From positions 1 to 32,868 of IMG/VR virus record IMGVR_UViG_3300042520_002253: a stretch of DNA of 32,868 nucleotides. The stretch is one strand, 5' to 3'. Below the pieces are notes generated by a model. The model was given only the letters and a program-made list of their open reading frames with translations. It did not search any database and had not been told where the DNA came from. The DNA comes from a virus. Shown piece after piece: positions 337-31,835 of the stretch. Both the position numbers and the translations under genes were made by a program. The stretch's first letter is position 1, and the number at the start of each line of letters is the position of its first letter.

Positions 337-627
337 TTATTTTTTAGATTTCACATATTTATATTCAACTTTATTTATTTTTTTAGGGTAAAGCTTTTCC
401 CTAATTATTACCTCAAAATCTTTTTTTAATGATTTTAAAGGTTTTTCTTTTTTGATCTCCCAGATTGCCTTACGACCAATTCCAATGATGTCTGAAATAT
501 CATTGTTTTTAAATCCGCTTTCAATAAGTAAATGGATTGCAACTCTTTTGATTTGCATCCACTCTTTTGAATTTGTTTGTTTTACCGAAAAATACTCTTC
601 CAGTTCGTCAATAGTAATATTGTCCAT
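337..627 (-). CDS. Small helix-turn-helix protein
   Basis: This 96-aa protein is unnamed, but residues about 27-60 (KRVAIHLLIESGFKNNDISD then IIGIGRKAIWEIKKEK) have the pattern of a helix-turn-helix: helix, GFKNNDIS, helix, then a recognition helix starting IGRKAIWEI. The C-terminal third is Lys-rich, which suits nucleic-acid binding. It is the first robust gene after the promoter at 697-725, so it is probably among the earliest expressed proteins. It is a candidate for the regulator that binds the paired inverted repeats at 710-739 and 29435-29464, though this link is inference only. The ATG at 627 was chosen because no earlier in-frame ATG is plausible. Confidence 0.75.
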   Translation of the reverse strand: MDNITIDELEEYFSVKQTNSKEWMQIKRVAIHLLIESGFKNNDISDIIGIGRKAIWEIKKEKPLKSLKKDFEVIIREKLYPKKINKVEYKYVKSKK

Positions 628-696: not shown

Positions 697-725
697 CAAA
701 GATATAAAATGTTTCTAATTAACAA
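697..725 (-). promoter_or_regulatory. Bacteroidota-type promoter for the small early genes
   Basis: On the minus strand the sequence reads TTG (725-723), 18 bp, then TATCTTTG (704-697), matching the Bacteroidota/Flavobacterium consensus TTG-N17-23-TAnnTTTG. Counting 7 bases on from the G gives a start near 690, an A. It sits upstream of the HTH operon. The -33 element lies inside an inverted repeat also found at the promoter at 29421. Confidence 0.8.
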
Positions 726-739
726 GCAAAAAAGAAACA
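710..739. promoter_or_regulatory. Operator-like inverted repeat TGTTTCT-N16-AGAAACA
   Basis: The arms are 710-716 and 733-739, with 16 bp between them, a perfect 7-bp inverted repeat spanning the -33 element of the promoter at 697-725. The same arms with the same 16-bp spacing occur at 29435-29464 over another promoter. A protein dimer bound here would block RNA polymerase, so a shared repressor is the simplest reading. Confidence 0.65.
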
Positions 740-19679: not shown

Positions 19680-20897
19680 ATGCAGTTTATTTCATTAAGA
19701 GACATTAGAAGTTTTTTTGGCGGTGCGAAAAACTATGATAAAACACCTTTATTTTATGGAGTGAATATACTTCTTAATGGAGGAAAAGGTGAAATACTTA
19801 ATCCGGAAAGTATAGATGCTTACGATGTTTATTCAACTACACCGCATTTAAAGGCTGTTATTTCTCGAAAAGGTGATTTACTTGCATCCGGTCAATGGAA
19901 GCATTACAAGATTATTCGCGGTGAAAAAATAGAAGTCGTAAATTCTGAAATAGTTGGTATTCTTGAAAATCCAAACGCTTTATTCAAAGGGAATGATTAT
20001 TTAAGATTGATCAATGAAAATATGTGCGTTTATGGTAATGTGTATAAATATGTTTTGCGCCCATTCAAAAAAAGTATTCCTGCATCTATAAATATTTTGC
20101 CTTCCAATGATATTGAAATAAAATCATTAGGAAAATGGTACAAGCAAAGTAAACTAAAAGATATTGTAAAAGAATATCGAATGATTTCGACAAACGATAC
20201 TTTACAAGTTGATGAAGTTGATCATACTTGGATTGTAAATTCTAAAAATCCGCTGCAAGGTGAAACTCCTTTGAAGGCTATTTATTTGCCTTTGTCTAAT
20301 TTGCGAATAGGAATGAAAACGCGAAATGTGTTGATGGCAAAACGCGGTGCAATTGGTATATTGTCAAACGATACAAAAGATGCTGTTGGTAATAAAGGGT
20401 TACCAAATGGAGAACGTGAAAAAATTGAAAAGGAATATCAAAAAAGTTACGGATTAGGTGACGACCAATCACAAATTATCATTTCAAATAATAATCTGAA
20501 ATGGCAGGCAATGGGTTTTCCAACCAAAGATTTGATGTTGTTTGAAGAAGATGAAAACGATTTTTGCCAATTATGTGATTGCTATGGAATAGCACGCGAT
20601 TTGTTTGCTTCTACAAAAGGTGCAACATTCGAAAATCAAAAGCAAGCATTGAAACAAACTTACCAAGGTACAATCATTCCAGAAGCAGAAGAAATTGCAA
20701 TGAATCACACATCAATTTTCAATCTTGATGGGGTGAATGAATGGTTGGAATTAGATTATTCGCATATTCCTGTACTTCAAGAAAATGAATTAGAAAAGTC
20801 ACAAACTTTGCAAAACAAATCAAATGCAATTAAGACTTTGAAAGATGCAGGGTATAGTGATCAACAAATTACATCTATTACTGGAGTTACACTTTGA
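19680..20897 (+). CDS. Phage portal protein (HK97 family), inverted relative to neighbours
   Basis: A 405-aa portal, the dodecameric ring through which DNA enters and leaves the head. Typical features of the HK97/PF04860-type portal are visible: HLKAVISRKGDLLASGQWK near the N-terminus, ENPNALFKGNDYLRLINENM with CVYGNVYKYVLRP, the clip/stem region ISTNDTLQVDEVDHTWIV with NPLQGETPLKAIY, and the C-terminal DLFASTKGATFENQKQAL. It is the only plus-strand gene. It lies between terminase and protease as usual, but its stop overlaps the terminase stop tail-to-tail by 11 bases. Base composition matches the neighbours. Confidence 0.92.
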   Translation: MQFISLRDIRSFFGGAKNYDKTPLFYGVNILLNGGKGEILNPESIDAYDVYSTTPHLKAVISRKGDLLASGQWKHYKIIRGEKIEVVNSEIVGILENPNALFKGNDYLRLINENMCVYGNVYKYVLRPFKKSIPASINILPSNDIEIKSLGKWYKQSKLKDIVKEYRMISTNDTLQVDEVDHTWIVNSKNPLQGETPLKAIYLPLSNLRIGMKTRNVLMAKRGAIGILSNDTKDAVGNKGLPNGEREKIEKEYQKSYGLGDDQSQIIISNNNLKWQAMGFPTKDLMLFEEDENDFCQLCDCYGIARDLFASTKGATFENQKQALKQTYQGTIIPEAEEIAMNHTSIFNLDGVNEWLELDYSHIPVLQENELEKSQTLQNKSNAIKTLKDAGYSDQQITSITGVTL

Positions 20898-24093: not shown

Positions 24094-24101
24094 CAAATGT
24101 A
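24094..24101 (-). promoter_or_regulatory. Promoter -7 element for the PLD/terminase operon, within an inverted repeat
   Basis: TACATTTG on the minus strand matches TAnnTTTG; an upstream TTG at 17-23 bp is not evident, so the promoter may need help. An inverted repeat, ATTCAAAT (24091-24098) and ATTTGAAT (24110-24117) with 11 bases between, overlaps this element, suggesting an operator. It lies between the terminator at 24145-24178 and the ATG at 24069. Confidence 0.5.
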
Positions 24102-24930: not shown

Positions 24931-25155
24931 TTAATTGTTTTCATTTATCAAATAATAACGCACCCAGTGTGAATTTTCATCTTTTTCACGCACTGAATTT
25001 ATCGTTAAACCTCTTTCTTTTAGCACGAAAACAATTCCTGATAGTCTTGTTGCGCTGTAATTCTTAATCGCTTCCCATGAAGTAATGCTTCCATGTTTGC
25101 GTAAATGTGATTCTACATTTTTAATCTTTGTTTCAAATTTATCTGAAGTAGCCAT
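24931..25155 (-). CDS. Small winged-helix DNA-binding protein
   Basis: A 74-aa protein (DKFETKIKNVESHLRKHGSI, TSWEAIKNYSATRLSGIVFV, LKERGLTINSVREKD, HWVRYYLI). The pattern is a winged helix: helix, ISTWEAI turn, recognition helix with ATRLSGIVFVLKERG, then a beta wing ending in RYYL. Such proteins follow SSB/RecT genes in many Bacteroidota phages. It could regulate the recombination operon or assist DNA metabolism. It is packed 3 bases before the RlpA-like gene. Confidence 0.75.
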   Translation of the reverse strand: MATSDKFETKIKNVESHLRKHGSITSWEAIKNYSATRLSGIVFVLKERGLTINSVREKDENSHWVRYYLINENN

Positions 25156-25539: not shown

Positions 25540-26061
25540 TTAAAAAATATCAAGGTTTATATTCATTCCATTGTTTGCCACTTGGCAAAATCTTTGAACT
25601 TGTTGTTCTATTTCTTGTTTAAATTCTTTTTCGTTTGAATTGGAATCCGAAAGGTGAATCAAAATAACATTTTGCGTTTTACTCAAATCGTTTGCTTTCA
25701 AAGTTTCAATACAGTTTTCAAGGCTTAAATGTGATTTCAAAATCCTATCTTTCAGAAAGTGATTGATTCCATGTTTTTCAATCTTTTCTTCAATGATTTT
25801 CTTTGAATAGTTCGCTTCAATAATCCAGTGCTTAACATCTTTGAAAGTGTATTTGCAATAGTAAGAATCGGTAATAAAAACAATTTTTCCGCACTCTGGA
25901 TGCTCAATTAAAAAAGAATAACATTCAACATCGTGTTTAGCTTCGAATGGTAATACTTTAAAGCTTCCGATTTGATATGTTTTGTTTTTTTCGATTGTTG
26001 TAATTGGAGTGTAAACTGAATTATATTTTTCGGTTACTGATTGGCAGGTATAAATATTCAT
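25540..26061 (-). CDS. Metallo-beta-lactamase-fold protein, C-terminal part after an in-frame stop
   Basis: An ORF of 173 aa with its own ATG, which continues without frame change the MBL-fold gene that stops at 26104. The region 26103-26062 upstream of this ATG still encodes the expected family sequence (LDHSKYIHEFSKIG), so the original protein ran through. Remaining candidate metal-binding sites include KHDVECYS, ITDSYY, KSHLSLEN and IHLSDS. Alone it lacks the HxHxDH motif and is probably inactive. It may exist as the tail of a hop product (see the site at 26101-26109), as a separate protein, or as the end of a pseudogene. Confidence 0.75.
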   Translation of the reverse strand: MNIYTCQSVTEKYNSVYTPITTIEKNKTYQIGSFKVLPFEAKHDVECYSFLIEHPECGKIVFITDSYYCKYTFKDVKHWIIEANYSKKIIEEKIEKHGINHFLKDRILKSHLSLENCIETLKANDLSKTQNVILIHLSDSNSNEKEFKQEIEQQVQRFCQVANNGMNINLDIF

Positions 26062-26100
26062 TCCGATTTTTGAAAATTCGTGAATATATTTTGAGTGGTC

Positions 26101-26130
26101 AAGTTAAAGATGCTCGTGAGACACGAGCAT
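26101..26130 (-). other. Candidate translational hop site CTT-TAA-CTT with abutting hairpin
   Basis: In the MBL-fold gene the in-frame codons are CAT CTT TAA CTT GAC CAC (26112-26095). The stop lies between two identical Leu codons (CTT 26109-26107 and 26103-26101). If tRNA-Leu hops from the first CTT to the second, the protein reads HEHLDH, exactly the MBL metal-binding motif HxHxDH. A perfect 9-bp stem with a 3-base loop (ATGCTCGTG-TCT-CACGAGCAT, 26130-26110) ends next to the take-off codon. Hopping over CUU-stop-CUN sites is known from experiments in E. coli, and hairpins promote bypassing in T4 gene 60. Whether it happens here is untested. Confidence 0.5.
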
Positions 26131-26277
26131 ACCTTGAATATTTTGAATGTTAAAATTTAAAACTTGTTTCACTTCAATCAATTTCATTCCTGCTTCGATT
26201 AACAAACATTCTCCTTTTGAATCTTGCAAAACATATCCGTTTCCTTTGCTTCCGGTACCTACTACAATTAATTTCAT
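26104..26277 (-). CDS. Metallo-beta-lactamase-fold protein, N-terminal part ending in TAA
   Basis: The first 57 codons of an MBL-fold hydrolase/nuclease. ATG 26277 gives MKLIVVGTGSKGNGYVLQDS, the typical MBL start (GxGSKGN). It ends GMLVSHEHL followed by TAA, in the middle of the HxHxDH metal motif. A longer GTG start at 26301 is less likely because the family begins at MKL. The same frame continues past the stop with LDHSKY. It lies between recT and the SSB-like gene, so the intact protein may be the nuclease partner of RecT. The 6 extra bases are either a disabling insertion or a recoding site. Confidence 0.75.
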   Translation of the reverse strand: MKLIVVGTGSKGNGYVLQDSKGECLLIEAGMKLIEVKQVLNFNIQNIQGMLVSHEHL

Positions 26278-26292
26278 ATTTCGCATATTAGA

Positions 26293-26324
26293 AGTGTACA
26301 CCCTAATTTAATAAGGTGTACACC
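26293..26324. promoter_or_regulatory. Two GTGTACAC palindromes between recT and the MBL gene
   Basis: GGTGTACACC at 26315-26324 is a perfect 10-bp palindrome, and GTGTACAC at 26294-26301 is a second copy in a direct repeat (period about 22 bp) that also includes the flanking CTAATTT. Direct plus palindromic symmetry, two helical turns apart, suggests a cooperative protein-binding site. It could control expression of the MBL gene. No promoter match was found here. Confidence 0.45.
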
Positions 26325-26333
26325 TAATTTTAT

Positions 26334-27203
26334 TTAGAATCCTGCTTCTTCAAAAGATTTCGGTTCTTCAACCTCCTGCTTTACTTCCTCTTTTTCGGTT
26401 TCTTTCGGTTGTTCAGCAATTTCTTCAAAATCTATTACTTCTGCATTTGCATTGTGCGTAAATTCGCGCTTCAATTCATTTTCAGCGGTTGGAATAATTA
26501 CTTCCTGCTCTTCGTATAAAGCTGAATCATCACTTGCACCGATAACTGTTTTTAATGCTCGGTTAATGATTGTTTTTTTAACCATTTCACCGCGAAAGTT
26601 TTTATGTGCAGGGCTTCCACCTTTTGCATAACCTTGATTCCATGAAGTTTCAACCTGTTTGATATTCATTATTTCGGTTTTCACTCTTCCATCGTTGAAA
26701 ATCACTACTGCATAGCCACCAATAATATCTTGATCATTGATATTTTCAAGTTTTGTTTCGTGTTGGATTACTTCAAATATTCCAGTTTTCGGGTTTACAC
26801 CGATATTGAATAAATCTTCTTTGTAAACCACAACTGCGTTTACCTCTCTCACTCCTGCTGTACGTTTCGCGATTGCTACATTTCCAAGGTATGATTTTGA
26901 AATTTGTAGTTTATCTCCGTATGGTATGAAGTACACTTGGTTTTTCATTGGAGACAACCCCCACGTTACCATACTGAATAATGCGTTTGCAATGCTTGGT
27001 TTTGTGCAGCTTTCAAGAACTGATTTACCTGATTTGTCTTTTTGCTCTGAAAGAACAAGATACGCACTTTTCAGCGCGTTTTCCGGAGAATAATTACTTG
27101 GAATAGTTAATTCCCCATTTTCTTTGAAGACATTGATTTTGTCTAACACTTGAACAGTAATGTCTTTTTTCACTGTTTCCACATTTTTTGTTGTTTCACT
27201 CAT
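26334..27203 (-). CDS. recT: RecT-family ssDNA-annealing protein
   Basis: A 289-aa recombinase that anneals complementary single strands. Typical RecT features: SIANALFSMVTWGLSPMKNQ, VYFIPYGDKLQISKSYLGNV, AIAKRTAGVREVNAVVVYKE, then GGYAVVIF, RVKTEIMNIKQV and the FRGEMVKKTIINRALK block. The C-terminal about 40 residues are Glu-rich and ordered loosely, often a site for SSB contact. It is preceded by the Rad50-like ATPase and followed by the MBL-fold gene and the SSB-like gene, a recombination module for replication by annealing. Confidence 0.93.
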   Translation of the reverse strand: MSETTKNVETVKKDITVQVLDKINVFKENGELTIPSNYSPENALKSAYLVLSEQKDKSGKSVLESCTKPSIANALFSMVTWGLSPMKNQVYFIPYGDKLQISKSYLGNVAIAKRTAGVREVNAVVVYKEDLFNIGVNPKTGIFEVIQHETKLENINDQDIIGGYAVVIFNDGRVKTEIMNIKQVETSWNQGYAKGGSPAHKNFRGEMVKKTIINRALKTVIGASDDSALYEEQEVIIPTAENELKREFTHNANAEVIDFEEIAEQPKETEKEEVKQEVEEPKSFEEAGF

Positions 27204-27243: not shown

Positions 27244-29238
27244 CTATTTGATAGTCAAAATTTCACATTCTGAATCTACGACTAAGTTAACTATTTGTTT
27301 CGTATTTTCCAAGATATTTGTAACGCTTTCTCTATTATCTATGAATATTGGCACTTGCGTTTCATAAAATTTAGATAGTGCTTTTATTACATCAATTCCT
27401 GCGTTTACTTTTGTCGCTGTGTTTAATGAAGAGAAAGGTACTCCATTCACCAGGGCTTCGCAGGTTTCTGATATCCCTCCGTTTAATTGGTTTTCAAACA
27501 TTTTGAATTTTACTATTTCAAAGTTTTGGTTTACTCGCTTTTCTATTAAATCAATTTTTGAGTTGTTGAATTTATCAATTGCCATTTCTACCTTTTCAAG
27601 GTTTGCGATTTCTTGACTTAAATTTGTAAATTGCTCTCTCAATTCAGCAAGTCTTTTGTTTTGCGATTCAATTACTTTGCGATCGTAAAGTTTTTCCTCC
27701 AAAGTTTTTATTTCATCCAGTAAAGTTTGTTTATCGTTTTTAAATTGCGTTGTATCAACTTCTTTTATCTCTGGAATAACAATGCTTTCAACTTCTTTTT
27801 GAAGTGCTTTTATCTCATCTGTCAAAGGTATTTCAACATCAATAAGGCTTAGTAGTGTATCTTCAACCGCTTTGAGTTCTTGGTTTTCAATATTGATTTT
27901 TTGTTGTGTTGATTCAACATCTAATTGTGCAGCATCTATTTTTGATCCAAGTAAAATATTTTCTTGCTTTAAAGCTTCAATCAATTCATTATTGGATTTT
28001 CCTTTCGCTCTGATTTCGTTTAGTATATTCGTTTTATTGTCCGTAAAGCGTTGAAGTAATTCTGCTCTTTTACTTTCAATATCTTCTATTGGCAATCCTT
28101 GTTTACAAGTAGGACAAACACACGATTCTAAATCAAAATCAAATTCTCTTGTATTTTCAGCTGTGAAAAGATTTCTTAAATTGTCGTTTGTTTTATTGAT
28201 TTCAATTTGTTTACTTTCATTGATTTCAACATCTTTTTTGGTATTGAAAACTATTTGTTTTGCCTTTGTTAGTTTGTCGTTTAGTAGGTACAAAGAGTGC
28301 TTCAAATCCTGCTCTTTCACTTTAAGTTCCGATTGGCTTTTTTTAGCTTCTGCGTTTAATTCAATAATCAATTGTTGAATCTTTTGCTCTTTCTGAAACT
28401 TATCCGTTTTGATTTGTTGAATTGCTTTTATTTGCTCGTCAGTGCCTTTTGTGGCATTTTCAATAAGTGAATCAAACTTTTGAATATCCTTTTTTAAAGA
28501 ATCAATTTTGCTTTCGATTTCCAACCAATTCTGCTCTTGTGGAATAGATCTACTTGCTTCGTCTATTCGTGCAGGTAGTTGATCCAATTCAGCCTTTAAA
28601 TTTTTGCGCTTTACAGCATATTCTTTTTTGATGTCCTCAAAAGATTTGTTTGAGTTAAGAATGTCTTTCAATCTTTCGTTTGTTTGATTGTCAACTATTG
28701 AAAAAACATCTTCATCACTTATTTCACCTGCTAATTCTGAAAGAACTAATCTTCGTTTTTTCCAGTCTAAAATTTGATTGAAGTACAAAGTGTTTGACAA
28801 CATTCTAAATTCTTCTTCATTGCAAATGGAATCAATTCTTGTTTTATATTCTGAAAGTGAAGCAGGAACATCGTTGATAAAGTATTCAGTTGTGTGACCG
28901 GTCAATTCACTTGTTTCAGAACCTCGTTTTTTAGTCCATTTTTCAAAGTAGGAAACTTTTAATTTTACCTCTTCGCTATCAATGTCAAATAAACCAATTA
29001 CTTCGTGTTTAAGGTTGTGAAGTGGATTGTTTGAAGAATCCAATGTTTTGATTTCGAATTGCTTTTCGTTTTGGCTGTTTTTTCCGTACAATAGGAATGT
29101 AAAAGCATCAAACACTGTTGTTTTTCCTGATCCATTTTTACCATGGATGAAAGTTTCTTTTTGTGTAAAATCTAATTTTAAAAATTTCACTCCTTTGAAG
29201 TTCACTAATTCCAAAGATTTTAAGTTCACATTTTTCAT
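27244..29238 (-). CDS. Rad50/SbcC-like AAA ATPase with zinc hook
   Basis: A 664-aa SMC-like protein. Residues 33-41 (GKNGSGKTT) are the Walker A loop. Two long coiled coils (about 190-365 and 380-590) flank a zinc-hook motif CVCPTC near 372-378. The C-terminal half has an ABC signature-like SSLNTATKVNAGIDVIKALS near 605-624 and a Walker B strand VPIFIDNRE near 629. The order N-ATPase, coil, hook, coil, C-ATPase matches Rad50/SbcC in a shortened form. No SbcD/Mre11 phosphoesterase gene was seen, so the MBL-fold protein is a candidate nuclease partner. Confidence 0.9.
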   Translation of the reverse strand: MKNVNLKSLELVNFKGVKFLKLDFTQKETFIHGKNGSGKTTVFDAFTFLLYGKNSQNEKQFEIKTLDSSNNPLHNLKHEVIGLFDIDSEEVKLKVSYFEKWTKKRGSETSELTGHTTEYFINDVPASLSEYKTRIDSICNEEEFRMLSNTLYFNQILDWKKRRLVLSELAGEISDEDVFSIVDNQTNERLKDILNSNKSFEDIKKEYAVKRKNLKAELDQLPARIDEASRSIPQEQNWLEIESKIDSLKKDIQKFDSLIENATKGTDEQIKAIQQIKTDKFQKEQKIQQLIIELNAEAKKSQSELKVKEQDLKHSLYLLNDKLTKAKQIVFNTKKDVEINESKQIEINKTNDNLRNLFTAENTREFDFDLESCVCPTCKQGLPIEDIESKRAELLQRFTDNKTNILNEIRAKGKSNNELIEALKQENILLGSKIDAAQLDVESTQQKINIENQELKAVEDTLLSLIDVEIPLTDEIKALQKEVESIVIPEIKEVDTTQFKNDKQTLLDEIKTLEEKLYDRKVIESQNKRLAELREQFTNLSQEIANLEKVEMAIDKFNNSKIDLIEKRVNQNFEIVKFKMFENQLNGGISETCEALVNGVPFSSLNTATKVNAGIDVIKALSKFYETQVPIFIDNRESVTNILENTKQIVNLVVDSECEILTIK

Positions 29239-29260: not shown

Positions 29261-29395
29261 TTACTTAATTCTACCTTTTGCCCATTGTTCCATCAATTCC
29301 ATTGAATTACAAAACGTGCGCAACACTTTTTCAATTTGCTTTTCAGTTCCTGTTTGCCCGTTGTACTGGCAAATCTTTTTCGCTAATTCTCTCAT
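29261..29395 (-). CDS. 44-aa small protein
   Basis: A short gene from ATG 29395 to TAA 29261-29263 (MRELAKKICQYNGQTGTEKQ, IEKVLRTFCNSMELMEQWAK). It looks helical with two Cys. It is the first ORF after the strong promoter at 29421-29451, about 19 bases after the inferred start, and the Rad50-like gene follows 22 bases after its stop. It may be a small early regulator or translational leader; no family was recognised. Confidence 0.6.
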   Translation of the reverse strand: MRELAKKICQYNGQTGTEKQIEKVLRTFCNSMELMEQWAKGRIK

Positions 29396-29420
29396 AATTT
29401 TCACATTTAAATTTCTTCAA

Positions 29421-29451
29421 CAAATATAATGCTTTGTTTCTTTACAAACAA
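29421..29451 (-). promoter_or_regulatory. Bacteroidota-type promoter for the recombination operon
   Basis: On the minus strand: TTG (29451-29449), 20 bp, TATATTTG (29428-29421), an ideal match. The inferred start is near 29414, an A. It drives the 44-aa gene, Rad50-like ATPase, recT and the genes behind. The downstream bases TTGAAGAA are shared with the promoter at 697, as is the inverted repeat over the -33 region. Confidence 0.85.
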
Positions 29452-29464
29452 TAAAAAAGAAACA
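29435..29464. promoter_or_regulatory. Operator-like inverted repeat TGTTTCT-N16-AGAAACA, second copy
   Basis: The arms are 29435-29441 and 29458-29464 with 16 bp between them; here they extend to 9 bp (TGTTTCTTT/AAAGAAACA). Same arms and same spacing as at 710-739, in nearly the same place relative to the -7 element (centre about 21 bp upstream in both). This makes a common DNA-binding regulator likely. Confidence 0.65.
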
Positions 29465-31727: not shown

Positions 31728-31821
31728 ATAAAAAAACCCTATCAAATCGGTAGGAGTCTCACGTCTACTTCATTGACAGGGTTTCAATTTCTTTTAGTTC
31801 ACTATGTTTGAGACTCGAACT
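31728..31821 (-). ncRNA. Structured RNA with complementary hairpin loops (kissing-loop candidate)
   Basis: On the minus strand, hairpin 1 (TAGTTC 31822-31817 with GAACTA 31800-31795) has a 16-base loop containing GAGTCTCA (31816-31809). Hairpin 2 is a 12-bp stem (31784-31773 with 31745-31734, one G-U pair) with an inner GTAG/CTAC stem and an 11-base loop containing TGAGACTC (31761-31754). The two 8-mers are perfect complements, which allows a kissing interaction. Hairpin 2 is followed by a T-run, so it is also a terminator. The inferred transcription start (31821) falls exactly at hairpin 1. It may be a stand-alone sRNA or an attenuator. Confidence 0.65.
31730..31784 (-). terminator. Terminator hairpin of the structured RNA / operon attenuator
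   Basis: Stem AAACCCTGTCAA with TTGATAGGGTTT (12 bp with one G-U pair), followed by TTTTATTTAA on the minus strand. It lies about 23 bases before the ATG at 31707 with no room for another promoter, so the operon behind it must be read through this site. Confidence 0.8.
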
Positions 31822-31827
31822 ACAACA

Positions 31828-31835
31828 CAAATATA
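31828..31835 (-). promoter_or_regulatory. Promoter -7 element of the structured RNA
   Basis: TATATTTG on the minus strand, a perfect TAnnTTTG. A clear TTG is missing at -33; TTTT 17 bases upstream is the nearest match. The inferred start is the A at 31821, which is the first base of the 5-bp core of hairpin 1. Confidence 0.65.

Follow-up and report, generated by a model that had tools for sequence, protein, structure and literature searches.

Genome organization at the two early promoters

The sequence analysed here in its entirety, hereafter the window, is the 32,868 bp virus record IMGVR_UViG_3300042520_002253. Its first 127 bases are repeated as its last 127, which makes it probable that the window represents a closed phage contig with a length of 32,741 bp. 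The G+C content of the contig is 30% and nearly all recognised genes of the window are carried on the minus strand. The portal gene (19680–20897, plus strand) is the only large gene that runs opposite to the others, an inversion that is also present in G001, G002 and G005. The capsid protein showed 36% likeness to Flavobacterium phages and the hosts of this virus are Flavobacteria-like bacteria. None of the records of the phage collection closely matched the first 25 kb of the window. The closest syntenic relatives were the viral contigs G001 and G002, with an SbcC-like protein that is 67–68% identical, and a further relative, G012, possesses a capsid protein that is 80% identical. No components of lambdoid immunity, that is, no CI/Cro-type repressor and no lysogeny genes (integrase), were found among the window ORFs scanned (small ORFs in part).

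Two minus strand promoters, P1 and P2, are the subject of this analysis. P1 follows the genes for the endolysin and the DUF6965 protein and is directed into small early genes, of which the first sizeable one encodes a 96 aa helix-turn-helix (HTH) protein (337–627, minus strand). P2 is located directly before a 47 aa ORF (29261–29404, minus strand), for which no relatives were found, followed by genes encoding an SbcC-like ATPase (27244–29238, minus strand; phrog_77, E 2.8e-62; AAA_23) and a RecT annealing protein (26334–27203, minus strand; phrog_148, E 4.4e-63; Pfam RecT, E 8e-38). By position, an early operon is found behind P1 and a recombination operon behind P2, as in lambda-like coordinated early operators.

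At 25540–26301 (minus strand) the window carries a gene for an MBL-fold hydrolase that contains an in-frame TAA; its counterparts are located in G001 (L014, 2999–3733) and G002 (L016, 9447–10175). Its metal motif in the window and G001 is CAT CTT TAA CTT GAC (HEHL*LDH), where identical CTT codons flank the TAA, and the G002 gene is without those 6 bases and reads HEHLDH. Codon divergence of the coding type was observed on both sides of the stop, and approximately 60 bases around it are identical between the window and G001. Because identical codons are present on both sides of the stop, a 6-base ribosomal bypass is possible; alternatively, the gene may be broken or may encode two split proteins. 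One of the phage homologues of this hydrolase is annotated as an anti-Pycsar nuclease.

A shared dyad overlaps the −33 element of P1 and P2

The inverted repeat TGTTTCT-N16-AGAAACA occurs exactly twice in the window, at 710–739 and 29435–29464 (minus strand; proposed operators O1 and O2). Both copies are exact and they were the only matches with fewer than three mismatches in a scan of the window, which confirms the preliminary description of an identical repeat at these two positions. The copies cover the −33 regions of P1 and P2, respectively, which are both Bacteroidetes-type promoters on the minus strand with a TAnnTTTG motif, the −7 box of flavobacterial sigma-A (PMC9723704). In minus strand reading, P1 is TGTTTCTTTTTTGCTTGTTAATTAGAAACA-tttta-TATCTTTG-TTGAAGAA and P2 is TGTTTCTTTTTTATTGTTTGTAAAGAAACA-aagcat-TATATTTG-TTGAAGAA. 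The −7 box TATCTTTG of P1 is at 697–704 and the −7 box TATATTTG of P2 at 29421–29428, and the −33 TTG (723–725 at P1; 29449–29451 at P2) is located inside each dyad. The start-site region TTGAAGAA, at 689–696 and 29413–29420 (minus strand), is common to both promoters. Accordingly, the repeat spans the −33 element at both promoters and the two share downstream sequence, as had been proposed. The dyad centre, previously placed about 21 bp upstream of the −7 box, was found at this distance for P2 (21 bp) but at 20 bp for P1, where the gap between the repeat and the box is 5 bp instead of 6 bp; the distance from the −33 TTG to the −7 box is 18 bp at P1 and 20 bp at P2.

Likeness between P1 and P2 was limited to the arms, a T-run, the −7 box and TTGAAGAA. 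The identity of TGTTTCTTTTTT and TTGAAGAA at both promoters could also be expected if one promoter cassette had been copied to a second place, with the dyad carried along without a function of its own. This explanation appears improbable to us, as the similarity of the flanks, and of the inner spacer for the most part, does not exceed that expected for such A/T-rich DNA while the arms, the −7 box and TTGAAGAA were kept, and as the relatives G012 and G039 have separate pairs in other letters (described below). The other six TGTTTCT half-sites of the window are inside ORFs by their coordinates. A role of the repeat as an RNA hairpin or terminator was rejected, given the weak stems (−8 and −7.4 kcal/mol), the unlike folds at the two sites and the absence of a T-run after the stem.

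Chance expectation of the shared dyad

Whole-genome shuffles showed that some repeated dyad with 7 bp arms and equal spacing is common (64.5% of shuffles), mostly with arms composed of A/T only, in comparison to only 0.5% of shuffles with a repeated dyad of at least 2 G/C per arm. The exact window repeat was absent from all 300 shuffles. A promoter test was based on dinucleotide shuffles of the 52 bp regions upstream of the 11 intergenic TAnnTTTG sites of the window, and a shared repeat with at least 2 G/C per arm was observed among these regions in 0 of 3000 shuffles, or in 2 of 3000 when the G/C condition was removed. The plain ungapped similarity score of P1 and P2 (18.0) equalled the 95% null value and is borderline, and the strength of the observation is the dyad plus its position rather than the overall similarity of the two promoters. 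The shared dyad over the −33 elements of two promoters is beyond chance, in agreement with the earlier argument.

The repeat sequence is private to this virus

The letters of the repeat are private to this virus. With at most one mismatch allowed, the repeat was absent from the syntenic relatives G001 and G002, and the single match among approximately 40 capsid-sharing relatives, with one mismatch, was located in G034. No copy was found in 62 RusA loci. The promoter-linked pattern with a fixed 5 bp gap had no match in viral contigs, and with a 3–8 bp gap it had one match in the viral collection, which falls within the coding sequence of a gene in an unrelated phage.

The dyad might alternatively be a binding site borrowed from a regulator of the host, as P1 and P2 match the sigma-A promoter type of the host (TAnnTTTG; PMC9723704). 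Our survey of 149 Flavobacteriaceae genomes argues against this, with the pattern present in 7 genomes and the reversed-pattern control also in 7, never more than once per genome. The two promoter-linked matches in genome contigs came from unrelated genomes and fell in what looks like coding sequence. Because pattern and reversed control are equally rare, without enrichment in the host family, a host regulon is unlikely; it was rejected as a candidate, and we regard a borrowed host site as highly improbable.

Paired dyads of different sequence in related phages

The preliminary description had proposed a search of related phages for the same pair and would have taken a lack of conservation there as a refutation. 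The relatives indeed do not conserve the letters, but they do not refute the layout: comparison of the upstream regions of promoters within each relative showed the arrangement again in different letters, and in at least one relative it occupies the equivalent promoters. In G012, ATTACATTT-N7-AAATGTAAT is found at the first early promoter and again, with one mismatch, before an ERF recombinase gene. ATTACATTTGTTTATTAAATGTAAT precedes small early genes of G012 that include the homologue of the window HTH protein, and the annealing protein behind the second dyad (Pfam ERF, E 4.2e-19) belongs to a recombinase family that differs from that of the window. An exact-arm search for repeated dyads in relatives overlooked the G012 pair because of the one mismatch, and the promoter comparison recovered it. 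Three early promoters in the DNA-metabolism region of G039 carry TTTGAA-N14-TTCAAA dyads, separated by 8 bp from the −7 box. G024 has a dyad common to two promoters, and two neighbouring promoters of the RusA locus L209 have a similar dyad (ATAAAC/GTTTAT and GATAAA/TTTATC). Among 200 distinct promoters of the group, 20 dyads centred 18–23 bp upstream of the −7 box were observed in comparison to approximately 5 in shuffles (two bins), although some of these are terminators. Dyads in G020, G024 (14633) and G028 were set aside, as they look like terminators upstream of promoters. The paired-dyad layout is not universal in the group, since promoter comparison identified no significant dyad pair in G001 and G002, though both promoters and the HTH homologue are present.

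Two further repeats were noted in the relatives. Near-identical copies around TTGGCGAACCTAAACACAGTACG...TTTCGCCAA in G022 (locus L126, 2237 and 5212) form an inverted-repeat element that is not at a promoter. Behind the first early promoter of G002, a gene that contains GTGCAAATCTTGACG in long tandem arrays spans the contig ends (L016, 1–280, and the end of L017); it looks like one for a pentapeptide-repeat protein.

The window has, on the minus strand, a second promoter type with no TTG at −33. Its dyad over −33 reads TTTGAA-N13-TTCAAA at 24101 and TTAATTCAAA at 31835, both resembling the three G039 promoters. In the 149 host-family genomes, this dyad had 4 matches versus 1 for the control, which is no real enrichment.

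A putative RNA of approximately 100 nt is located behind a TATATTTG box at 31730–31835 of the window (minus strand) in a promoter-hairpin-terminator arrangement, where the loop of the 5′ hairpin/segment is complementary to the loop of the following terminator hairpin. Sites of this kind were found in G002 (L016, 3935), G010 (L111, 10341), G008 (L107, 2389), G012 (L113, 12276), G015 (L116, 11941) and G001 (L015, 12280). The loop words covary between the window (GAGTCTCA/TGAGACTC), G002 (GCTCTC/GAGAGC), G010 (CATCCTAC/GTAGGATG), G008 (GTTCTCAC/GTGAGAAC), G012 (GCGTGAGAAA/TTTCTCACGC) and G015 (CATCCAC/GTGGATG), and those of the G001 site do not match. No Rfam family was matched at the gathering score, and a generic scan for such loop-loop RNAs returned more than in shuffles. 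This RNA is a candidate new phage small RNA with loop-loop contact.

Candidate regulators

The HTH protein encoded at 337–627 had been suggested as the regulator. This suggestion gained from its AlphaFold model (mean pLDDT 87.4), a confident helix-turn-helix with a beta hairpin, but not from family searches, where no Pfam or NCBIfam match was obtained at the curated cut-off and all family matches, terminase small subunit among them, were weak. Foldseek with this model returned no match at E 0.001 or better, and among its top matches are DNA-binding HTH domains, for example the C-terminal domain of DnaA. A search for this protein among viral contigs and phages identified homologues only in G001, G002, G012 and one short contig that starts too near the gene to show a promoter. 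The scaffold is kept among the homologues, and the putative recognition helix is GRKAIWEIK in the window, TYKTLWTLE in G012 and SPINVCNNK in G001; its apparent divergence fits private operators. In both G012 and G001 at least one other gene separates the HTH homologue from the promoter. Overall, the 337–627 protein is a reasonable candidate for the dyad binder.

The window also encodes a winged-HTH protein (24931–25155, minus strand; Pfam HTH_39, E 1.8e-9), an alternative regulator candidate that the preliminary description had not named. With 73% identity in G001 and G002, it is too conserved in relatives without the dyad to be the better candidate, and it was disfavoured as the binder. The second HTH protein named in the preliminary description, of 92 aa and spanning the contig junction, had no family match and none to an HTH family in particular, and the part of it that is common to relatives looks to be its C-terminal part.

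Proposed regulation of the two operons

We consider it probable, although by no means certain, that the two repeats are operators at which one phage-encoded dimer bound across −33 blocks sigma-A RNA polymerase and turns down both operons, with a regulator that probably comes from the P1 operon. Such a dimer would contact the two TGTTTCT half-sites, approximately two helix turns apart, across the −33 elements of P1 and P2, and would exclude sigma region 4 and with it sigma-A RNA polymerase from both promoters. Expression of the SbcC/RecT operon and of the early small-gene operon, which starts after the genes for the endolysin and the DUF6965 protein, would then be lowered together. If the regulator is made from the P1 operon, for which the 96 aa HTH protein would be the first candidate, P1 and P2 may be subject to negative feedback after an early burst. 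The earlier proposal of one regulator for the early genes and the recombination operon is consistent with the dyad at both promoters, with the unlikely host regulon and with the pair that G012 has at equivalent promoters, the regulator itself being putative.

Repression is the simplest reading because the arms flank the −33 TTG, where a bound dimer would block sigma region 4. The same dyad, position and start-site sequence at P1 and P2 would equally fit a shared activator, or a phage factor directing polymerase to these promoters, and the other dyad promoters (G039; window 24101 and 31835) are without a −33 TTG in the expected place. P1 and P2, however, have a −33 TTG and good −7 boxes, so they look strong unaided, and a protein bound to both arms around the −33 element would block sigma; we judge an activator site to be unlikely. 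The regulator acting at these operators is probably a phage-encoded, fast-evolving repressor. Tentatively, the design may extend to a group of Flavobacteriia-type phages that have no recognisable lysogeny genes, where each phage or small clade would possess its own early operator, over −33 of the first early and recombination promoters, together with a matching small HTH regulator. This possible, if doubtful, generalization would amount to a fast-evolving specificity, akin to that of immunity, which serves to time lytic growth.

A private operator pair with parallels in other letters among relatives provides a concrete, testable regulon for which a candidate regulator is at hand; as a tool, Flavobacterium genetics would gain a phage repressor system. 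In the literature searched, of which coverage was incomplete, no description of such operators in the early-gene control of Bacteroidota phages was found.

Comparison with known systems

The OL and OR operators of phage lambda, bound by CI and Cro, place the operator of one regulator at two distant early promoters, pL and pR. One of the two drives recombination genes, and the operator letters differ between related phages. Here too the same dyad overlaps promoter elements at two early promoters, as in coordinated early operators, and it would probably couple the beginning of the early region with the recombination operon. In contrast to lambda, a single 30 bp dyad with half-sites two turns apart is present per promoter, both promoters have the same direction and are of the Bacteroidetes sigma-A type, and no CI/Cro-type repressor or integrase was recognised. 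In comparison to the plain flavobacterial sigma-A promoter (PMC9723704), P1 and P2 carry the same TAnnTTTG box and TTG near −33 and add a dyad over −33. Mycobacteriophages of cluster A have many sites (stoperators) for one repressor, and the motif varies by genome and tracks repressor divergence (PMC6550527). These stoperators are asymmetric and genome-wide (PMC6550527), whereas the window dyad is symmetric and located at two promoters only.
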